Source: Oscillospiraceae bacterium
Lineage (GTDB): Bacteria > Bacillota > Clostridia > UMGS1810
Direction: 5' to 3'
NCBI GenBank assembly: GCA_015068975.1
Contig: SVJM01000008.1
Location: 1-64,000, forward strand
DNA: 64,000 nt
Shown here: positions 15,803-47,068 of the stretch, piece after piece
How the letters are laid out: each line of letters opens with the position of its first letter
Position numbering within the stretch: position 1 is the stretch's first letter
Made by a program: the position numbers and the translations under genes
The notes under the pieces: generated by a model
Seen by the model: the letters and a program-made list of their open reading frames with translations, nothing else
Database searches by the model: none
Told to the model about the DNA's origin: nothing

Positions 15803-15981
15803 ATTGCATTGCAAAGCAATGCAATGAATTGCCTGACGGCATGAATTGAAATCTATGATTTCATGAATTGAGTCTACGACTCATGAATTGCACCTTCGGT
15901 GCATTTTAGGCAATTCAATTCATGGAGCGGAGCGAGAATTCATGGCAGAGCCAATTCATGACAAGGTCGTTGTCAATTCAT
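15803..15981 (+). repeat. Multi-hairpin array A: ATGAATTG linkers with variable mini-hairpins
   Basis: An opening 10-bp hairpin with AAA loop (15803-15825) is followed by four forward linkers ATGAATTG (15824, 15841, 15863, 15883) and then four inverted linkers, CAATTCAT or GAATTCAT (15916, 15936, 15952, 15974). Between the linkers lie tiny hairpins: GCC-TGAC-GGC, GAAATC-TAT-GATTTC, GAGTC-TAC-GACTC, GCACC-TTC-GGTGC, then a GCGGAGC element, GGC-AGA-GCC and GACAA-5-TTGTC. Forward and inverted linkers can pair, giving a closed multibranch fold. It occupies the 3' region of cysK, where no normal terminator is seen. Arrays B and C in this window share the design. Confidence 0.8.
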
Positions 15982-26183: not shown

Positions 26184-26296
26184 GGTGCAATGAATTGTCT
26201 TGCGACGTGAATTGAAATAAAAGATTTCATGAATTAAGCCGTTGGCTTATGAATTGCACCTTGTGGTACATTTTAATGCAATTCAATTCATTTTTC
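26184..26296 (+). repeat. Multi-hairpin array B, homologue of array A
   Basis: Four forward linkers close to ATGAATTG (26190, 26207, 26229, 26249) and one inverted CAATTCAT (26284-26291) followed by TTTTT. The hairpins between them are GTC-TTGC-GAC, GAAAT-5-ATTTC, AAGCC-GTT-GGCTT and GCACC-TTGT-GGTAC. Unit by unit it aligns with 15821-15923 of array A. Stem 1 changes a C:G pair to T:A, and stem 3 changes G:C to A:T and T:A to C:G, all compensatory. The outer linker pair plus the T-run could make it act as a branched terminator of the phosphatase gene. Confidence 0.8.
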
Positions 26297-44418: not shown

Positions 44419-44778
44419 TTGGTTGTAAAAAGAGGAGATATTTTTTACGCAGATTTAAGTCCGGTGATAGGAAGTGAGCAGGGTGGTGTAAGGCCTGTAC
44501 TTATCGTTCAGAATGATGTGGGCAACCGATACAGTCCTACTGTGATAGTAGCCGCAATTACATCACAGATAAACAAGGCAAAGCTTCCCACTCATATAGA
44601 GATACCTGGATTGGAATACGGTCTGAGTAAGGATTCTGTGATACTTCTTGAACAGATCCGCACTGTGGACAAAAAACGTCTGAGAGAAAAAATTGGTCGA
44701 CTCAATGATGATGTTATGACAGATGTGGATATTGCTATGAAAATCAGCTTCGGTTTTCCCGAAGATGTTGATATGTGA
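44419..44778 (+). CDS. ndoA: MazF/NdoA-type endoribonuclease toxin
   Basis: A 119-residue PemK/MazF-fold protein: '[20 protein letters not shown]' at the N-terminus, 'RPVLIVQND' and '[15 protein letters not shown]'. Firmicute homologues cut mRNA at UACAU. The start is a TTG two bases after the antitoxin stop, with GGAG ten bases upstream, so toxin synthesis is probably low and coupled to the antitoxin. Confidence 0.92.
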
Positions 44779-46712: not shown

Positions 46713-46731
46713 AAAAATAATGGCTCAGATA

Positions 46732-46935
46732 TGCCGAGTGCCCTTAAGGACACTCGGCAGTGATATGAATTCCTACGGCATTCCCGATATGTGTTTCACA
46801 CTCGATATGCCTTGCGGCGCGATATGTCGCTAAAGCGACGCTTTTTTGAATTCATATCATATCGCAATTTCTGAAAGAAATTATATCGAATTTGTCGTAA
46901 GACAAATATATCGAGTTTGCGTAGCAAACATATAA
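46732..46935 (+). repeat. Multi-hairpin array C: CGATATG linkers with variable mini-hairpins
   Basis: A 9-bp leading hairpin (TGCCGAGTG / CACTCGGCA, 46732-46759) is followed by forward linkers TGATATG or CGATATG (46761, 46785, 46803, 46820) and inverted ones CATATCA/CATATCG/TATATCG (46853, 46858, 46882, 46907). GATATGAATTC (46762-46772) pairs perfectly with GAATTCATATC (46848-46858). Mini-hairpins include GTG-TTT-CAC, GCC-TTGC-GGC, GTCGC-TAAA-GCGAC, AATTTC-5-GAAATT, ATTTGTC-GTAA-GACAAAT and GTTTGC-GTA-GCAAAC. The architecture equals that of arrays A and B with a different linker word. Confidence 0.8.
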
Positions 46936-46936
46936 C

Positions 46937-46982
46937 AAAACCGTTCAAAATGTATAAGAATACACTTTGAACGGTTTTTCTT
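46937..46982. terminator. Strong bidirectional terminator after array C
   Basis: AAAACCGTTCAAA / TTTGAACGGTTTT (46937-46949, 46966-46978), a 13-bp perfect stem whose loop holds TGTAT / ATACA, followed by TCTTTG. It separates the coiled-coil gene from the minus-strand DUF378 gene. Confidence 0.85.
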
Positions 46983-47068
46983 TGTTTATAAAATGTCCTT
47001 ATGACACTCCTCATTTACCTTATGAAAAGGTAAGCGAAGCGAACATTTAATTTACGAAGTCAATTTTT

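Follow-up and report, generated by a model that had tools for sequence, protein, structure and literature searches.

Array C, a ladder of small hairpins separated by a repeated 7-nt word at positions 46,732 to 46,935 of the window (the whole 64,000-nt stretch of Oscillospiraceae DNA that was analyzed), is one copy of a widespread, dispersed DNA element of gut Clostridia. The element class to which it belongs is very probably linked to genes of the S23 family (PF05635/TIGR02436), which encode the four-helix-bundle protein named after 23S rRNA intervening sequences. We favor, with some reserve, a reading in which the linkers serve as words recognized by the cognate S23 protein, and array C represents a non-autonomous version of such an S23-linked element.

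Architecture and dispersal of array C

The repeated linker, its reverse complement, the closing stem and the mini-hairpins that had been reported for array C are all present, with small corrections to the length of the linker and of the unit. The linker has 7 nt (NCGATAT on the left and its reverse complement ATATCGN on the right), and the true unit is slightly larger than first described. All of its parts are given here on the plus strand. The unit begins with a 5' hairpin of 28 nt, hp0 (TGCCGAGTGCCCTTAAGGACACTCGGCA, 46,729-46,759). Four left linkers follow, namely L1 (GTGATAT, 46,760-46,766, also the 5' part of the closing stem), L2 (CCGATAT, 46,784-46,790), L3 (TCGATAT, 46,802-46,808) and L4 (GCGATAT, 46,819-46,825), alternating with the hairpins h1 (46,767-46,783), h2 (GTGTTTCACAC, 46,791-46,801), h3 (GCCTTGCGGC, 46,809-46,818, the previously noted GCC-TTGC-GGC hairpin) and h4 with its spacer (GTCGCTAAAGCGAC, 46,826-46,847). 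The 3' arm of the closing stem (GAATTCATATC, 46,848-46,858) pairs with 46,762-46,772; taken over 12 nt (46,761-46,772 with 46,848-46,859), the two arms are 100% complementary. The right half consists of R1 (ATATCGC, 46,859-46,865), h5 (46,866-46,882), R2 (ATATCGA, 46,883-46,889), h6 (46,890-46,907), R3 (ATATCGA, 46,908-46,914), h7 (46,915-46,929) and a degenerate R4 (ATATAAC, 46,930-46,936), with which the array proper ends. Beyond it lie a terminator-like hairpin carried by the array-C subfamily (46,937-46,978) and, at the 3' end, a hairpin-like sequence that resembles the reverse complement of hp0 (46,992-47,014).

The array stands between a small ORF and clpX. A fold of 46,715-46,985 is strongly stable on both strands (z = -10.95 on the minus strand and -7.55 on the plus strand). 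At the Rfam gathering score, the window gives a tRNA only, with no match for array C. A MazF/PemK-like toxin gene is located about 2 kb away (44,419-44,775), and no link between it and the array was seen.

The original prediction would have fallen if a pattern search had found such arrays at the rate expected by chance, and the search gave the opposite result. A word-independent detector, based on architecture only (identical 6-mers flanking palindromic spacers, with at least two modules in a row), returned five half-arrays in the window, all of them parts of arrays A, B and C and together accounting for all three; 20 sequences simulated from the dinucleotide frequencies of the window gave no hit. 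Array A (15,803-15,981, plus strand) is a complete array of the same architecture with the linker ATGAATTG/CAATTCAT and its own hp0, whereas array B (26,186-26,291, plus strand) is the left half alone of a ATGAATTG-type array. The upstream flank of array A (CCTGACTTGACACGAACTATTGC) and its tail (GCATCTAAACCTTATGTGTCGCAAT) also flank a AGCTAAAT array in another metagenome-assembled genome (MAG; locus L223), and left halves resembling array B occur on contigs C7, C54, C36 and C76 of the same genome as the window.

Copies of array C that are 93-100% identical and have unrelated flanks were found on four other contigs. In four of the five closest copies, the homology continues past the terminator-like hairpin to about 47,014; the copy on C76 diverges after about 46,986. 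The whole dispersed unit of the array-C subfamily (hp0, array, terminator-like hairpin and 3' hairpin) can thus be placed at 46,729-47,014 on the plus strand, from the homology common to the copies on C27, C22 and C49 in unrelated flanks, with an approximate 3' end. A covariance model of the plan identified about 32 full GCGATAT/TCGATAT copies, including array C, in the 2.35-Mb genome that contains the window, and copies in 10 of the 16 genomes of the family, which are incomplete MAGs with genes called by simple ORF rules. A DNA pattern of the right half matched at least 114 stretches in MAG contigs; among the matches whose titles were listed, all come from MAGs labelled Clostridia, Oscillospiraceae, Ruminococcus, Clostridiales or Lachnospiraceae, most of them with herbivore-gut sample names. 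The same pattern had only three matches in viral contigs, and a search with the DNA of array C against plasmid and phage collections yielded none. The array-C-subfamily copies on C27, C22 and C49, together with a relative in another genome (L089), are located inside the loops of terminator-like hairpins with stems of 10, 12, 6 and 11 bp, respectively. The window copy has no such enclosing stem, and over all arrays the flanks show little excess of stem complementarity over shuffled pairing, so that the array-C subfamily and this one relative alone stand out.

A common plan with variable linker words

Full copies share one plan: hp0, four 7-nt linkers alternating with hairpins, a closing stem of 11-12 bp, and four reverse-complement linkers again alternating with hairpins. 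Each of the 22 copies first read in the genome of the window can be divided into seven hairpins and two sets of four linkers, one on the left and one on the right. The stems covary, with 27 pairs changed on both sides (17.8 in shuffles) and 91% of the cells paired, and the closing stem covaries as well. Nested and parallel pairings of the left and right linkers score equally, so the ladder fold remains putative, and the complementarity of the two linker sets may simply mirror binding sites in both orientations. Two copies (L021 and L022) have a larger h4 with an additional hairpin nested in it, which looks like the insertion of a second palindrome.

About a dozen linker words occur in this unchanged plan across Clostridia MAGs, namely GCGATAT, TCGATAT, ATGAATTG (the word of arrays A and B), GTGAAAT, ATGAAGT/GTGAAGT, AGCTAAAT, ATGATTTG, ATGATGT/GTGATGT, GTGGTATT, ATGATAT and GTTATAT. 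The word is repeated within an array and differs between families, which strongly supports the proposal of an element class whose linker is fixed per family. The companion proposal, that hairpin modules are exchangeable, stands in part. Hairpins vary freely and with compensation inside one linker family (107 of 125 hp0 sequences are distinct), a very similar hp0 (TGCCGAGTG..CACTCGGCA) is combined with both CGATAT and GTGGTATT linkers (hp0 of array C itself has similar counterparts in the GTGGTATT-type S23 leaders L290 and L328), and one array in the genome of the window (L027, C55:26,794-26,970) looks chimeric, with TCGATAT-type linkers on the left and GCGATAT-type linkers on the right. The small hairpins that are identical across families, on the other hand, have just 8-10 nt and are too short to prove recombination.

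The S23 partner gene and its association with the linker word

Protein genes that co-occur with the arrays had been named as a point to pursue, and one recurrent partner emerged. The ORF that recurs after arrays encodes an S23 protein homologous to PDB 2RLD. It is absent from array C and present in complete relatives, including an intact GCGATAT unit in the same genome (C25), in which the array is followed by a 115-aa open frame; a decayed ATGAATTG unit was also found there (C9). We then searched for S23 genes irrespective of arrays at the family and class levels (an order-level search covered the same 16 genomes as the family search) and obtained 96 loci with a usable ORF. Array modules were detected within 400 nt upstream in 46 of these 96 loci, compared to 9 of 94 downstream of the same genes; the loose criterion of the detector (5-mers) lets a few other word repeats into the 46, and its misses include further degenerate arrays recognized when the sequences were read by eye. 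No arrays accompany the S23 loci that scored best in the class search (L261-L278). Conversely, S23 lies directly downstream in only 8 of 97 parsed GCGATAT/TCGATAT arrays; all others are solo.

Which linker word is used can be predicted from the S23 clade. Across a tree built from 59 S23 proteins, whose loci use nine words (the labels of 12 proteins were assigned by hand after the sequences had been seen), the word changes 10 times, with a minimum of 8, compared to a mean of 37.2 in shuffles, and none of 200 shuffles was as low. At a finer scale, a single linker base tracks the S23 subclade in all 18 loci of the CGATAT group: the first base is G (C on the right) in 10 of 10 loci with KTIKELAVEL-type proteins, and mainly T (A on the right, where readable) in all eight with LREETINFAI-type proteins. 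This association suggests a protein that reads its word, and we consider it reasonably probable that the linkers are recognized by S23. As array and gene are adjacent and possibly co-inherited, physical linkage alone could yield the same pattern, which is therefore no proof of recognition.

S23 loci without a ladder, some of them from other phyla, often show short words in the upstream flank that return as reverse complements in the downstream one. The two flanks have five or more inverted 8-mers in common in 27 of 51 such loci, compared to 147 of 997 mismatched pairings; the test is crude, includes low-complexity AT-rich flanks and a few degenerate ladders, and provides a lead only. These words are a hint that the PF05635 superfamily as a whole may recognize words.

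Several individual S23 loci are also worth recording. In the genome of the window, an S23 gene (L234, C8:267-578) is flanked by inverted repeats (AATTTAAAATGGAAAGTTGAAAG/CTTTCAACTTTCC-like) and adjoins a tRNA gene, whose 5' end (GCGGCTGTGGCGGAAT) flanks the unit on either side in the manner of a target duplication. Two contigs of a phage collection, from human faeces (L355 in MT835815.1 and L356 in MT835590.1), carry S23 genes with ladder-type arrays upstream, with the linkers GTGATATT and TGAAAT; one of the two directly follows a tRNA gene. In other groups, short tandem words (CACTGGT or GAAAGATGAAAG, for example) surround the S23 genes of Treponema (L357), Anabaena (L358), Euhalothece (L359) and Monoglobus (L354).

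Interpretation and relation to known systems

In the model that we favor, a complete unit would consist of a promoter or terminator, hp0, the four left linkers with their hairpins, the closing stem, the four reverse-complement linkers with their hairpins, and the S23 gene. The eight linkers, four per strand, would be recognition words for the cognate S23 protein, the hairpins would display these words, or set the distance between them, once the DNA (or RNA) is folded, and the protein would help the element to replicate or spread. Solo arrays such as array C would then have been moved in trans or be decayed remnants. A requirement for S23 in the spread is the more tentative part of this model and is judged a little doubtful. 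No catalytic activity is known for S23 proteins, so the explanation lacks the machinery that would move the element. The small share of arrays followed by S23, the array-free S23 loci with the best scores, and the failure to find a target-site duplication or an empty site at the array copies also count against the model.

The alternative that survives best, although we consider it unlikely, is that the array is a cis-acting RNA leader, i.e. an autoregulatory 5' UTR of S23 genes, with the solo arrays as S23-controlled RNA elements elsewhere (an S23 regulon). Arrays do end just before the S23 start codon (15-19 nt from the last linker in most GCGATAT/TCGATAT and ATGAATTG units), 19 of 131 loci have a TTG-16/18-TATAAT promoter where hp0 begins, compared to about one at shifted positions, and AAATTCC can pair either with h1 or with the closing arm, all of which would suit a leader. 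However, the 131 proteins that are nearest neighbors of solo GCGATAT/TCGATAT arrays fall into 122 clusters; being nearly all different, they indicate that solo arrays do not serve particular genes as a conserved regulatory element. Instead of preceding genes, many arrays immediately follow a gene or a tRNA terminator: they are often close behind a co-directional gene (by crude gene calls), and several follow a tRNA, whose terminator-like hairpin takes the place of hp0. The stems, too, lend no support to an RNA-only reading. They are nearly pure Watson-Crick, and G-U and A-C wobbles are equally rare (seven and eight in one genome; GT 24 and AC 27 in 76 arrays), so that neither RNA strand is favored and selection on one of them gains no support.

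Somewhat less probable still is that array C is an ordinary MITE: an unrelated DNA transposase would recognize its ends and move it, with the array as a passenger. Related hairpin sequence is indeed found at both ends of the array-C subfamily (GAGTG-CC-TAAGGACA-like, by eye), and its copies have sharp boundaries in common, as a MITE would. The ends vary between subfamilies while the plan of the array is constant, no target-site duplication was seen at the array copies, and no transposase flanked by the array was found. The genome of the window has two Y1 transposase genes, neither of them beside an array, with the nearest array half about 1.5 kb from one. No empty site was found either; for array C, relatives gave only weak matches (at most 34% identity) as orthologs of the upstream gene, which is why none was obtained.

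REPIN/RAYT systems, in which REP-like hairpins are spread by a Y1 tyrosine transposase, have the same format as the arrays: inverted sets of a short conserved word with a variable hairpin, dispersed outside genes, some of them accompanied by the gene of a cognate, word-specific protein and others non-autonomous (PMC3116915). As in REPINs, short palindromes with a conserved head word occur in inverted pairs in the arrays. That they are such a system is nevertheless very improbable, because the linked protein is the four-helix bundle of PF05635 and not a Y1 transposase; the two Y1 genes mentioned above (PF01797 matches), not adjacent to arrays, disfavor a RAYT-driven system as well. The array differs from a REPIN also in its length of about 180 nt and its eight linkers. 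Least credible is a passive origin as functionless palindromes from replication slippage or template switching, which would give near-pure Watson-Crick stems with no strand bias through palindrome repair but leaves the fixed 4+4 plan that the families have in common, the constancy of the word over eight positions, the S23 linkage and the word-clade association unexplained. A CRISPR array was rejected, as the spacers are palindromic, the linkers invert in mid-array, and no cas family was detected among the adjacent genes scanned.

The S23-linked element can also be compared with other systems. S23/IVP proteins are widespread and of solved structure, with no known function, and the origin of rRNA intervening sequences (IVSs) is unclear (PMC4990558). 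Like an IVS with an S23p ORF, the complete unit is a structured element that carries a PF05635 ORF, and the location of some array-C copies in the loops of terminator hairpins recalls the way in which an IVS takes the place of an rRNA-helix tetraloop (PMC4990558). In Coxiella, the IVS replaced an rRNA tetraloop, and tandem heptamers are found upstream of its S23 gene (PMC4990558); this parallel is suggestive and is not evidence of common descent. Unlike rRNA IVSs, the arrays lie outside rRNA, beside protein-coding or tRNA genes, and have a 4+4 linker-hairpin ladder, many solo copies and links to particular S23 clades. The Avd protein of diversity-generating retroelements, which resembles PF05635 (PMC10053308), offers another example of a related four-helix-bundle protein that works with a nucleic-acid element. 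Unlike those retroelements, the S23 genes that were read, in an unsystematic survey, had no reverse transcriptase, template or variable repeat noticed beside them. Dispersed repeats of comparable size with predicted secondary structure include the bcr1-type repeats of the Bacillus cereus group, for which we know of no linker-hairpin ladder or linkage to S23. We found no description of such arrays in the open-access literature, and novelty is claimed against that scope.

The arrays may represent a previously undescribed mobile or selfish class. In it, an inverted hairpin array would display a family-specific short word to the S23 four-helix-bundle protein that reads it, the word and its reader would diversify together, and arrays of the non-autonomous kind would spread among the genomes of gut Clostridia; we regard this full picture as a serious possibility that falls short of a probable one. 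The family-specific word arrays that accompany each S23 clade give S23 a concrete candidate ligand. If the picture is true, it would define a class of protein-word elements analogous to REPIN/RAYT and built on a family with no known catalytic activity, and would account for the strange hairpin repeats that are numerous in uncultured gut Clostridia.
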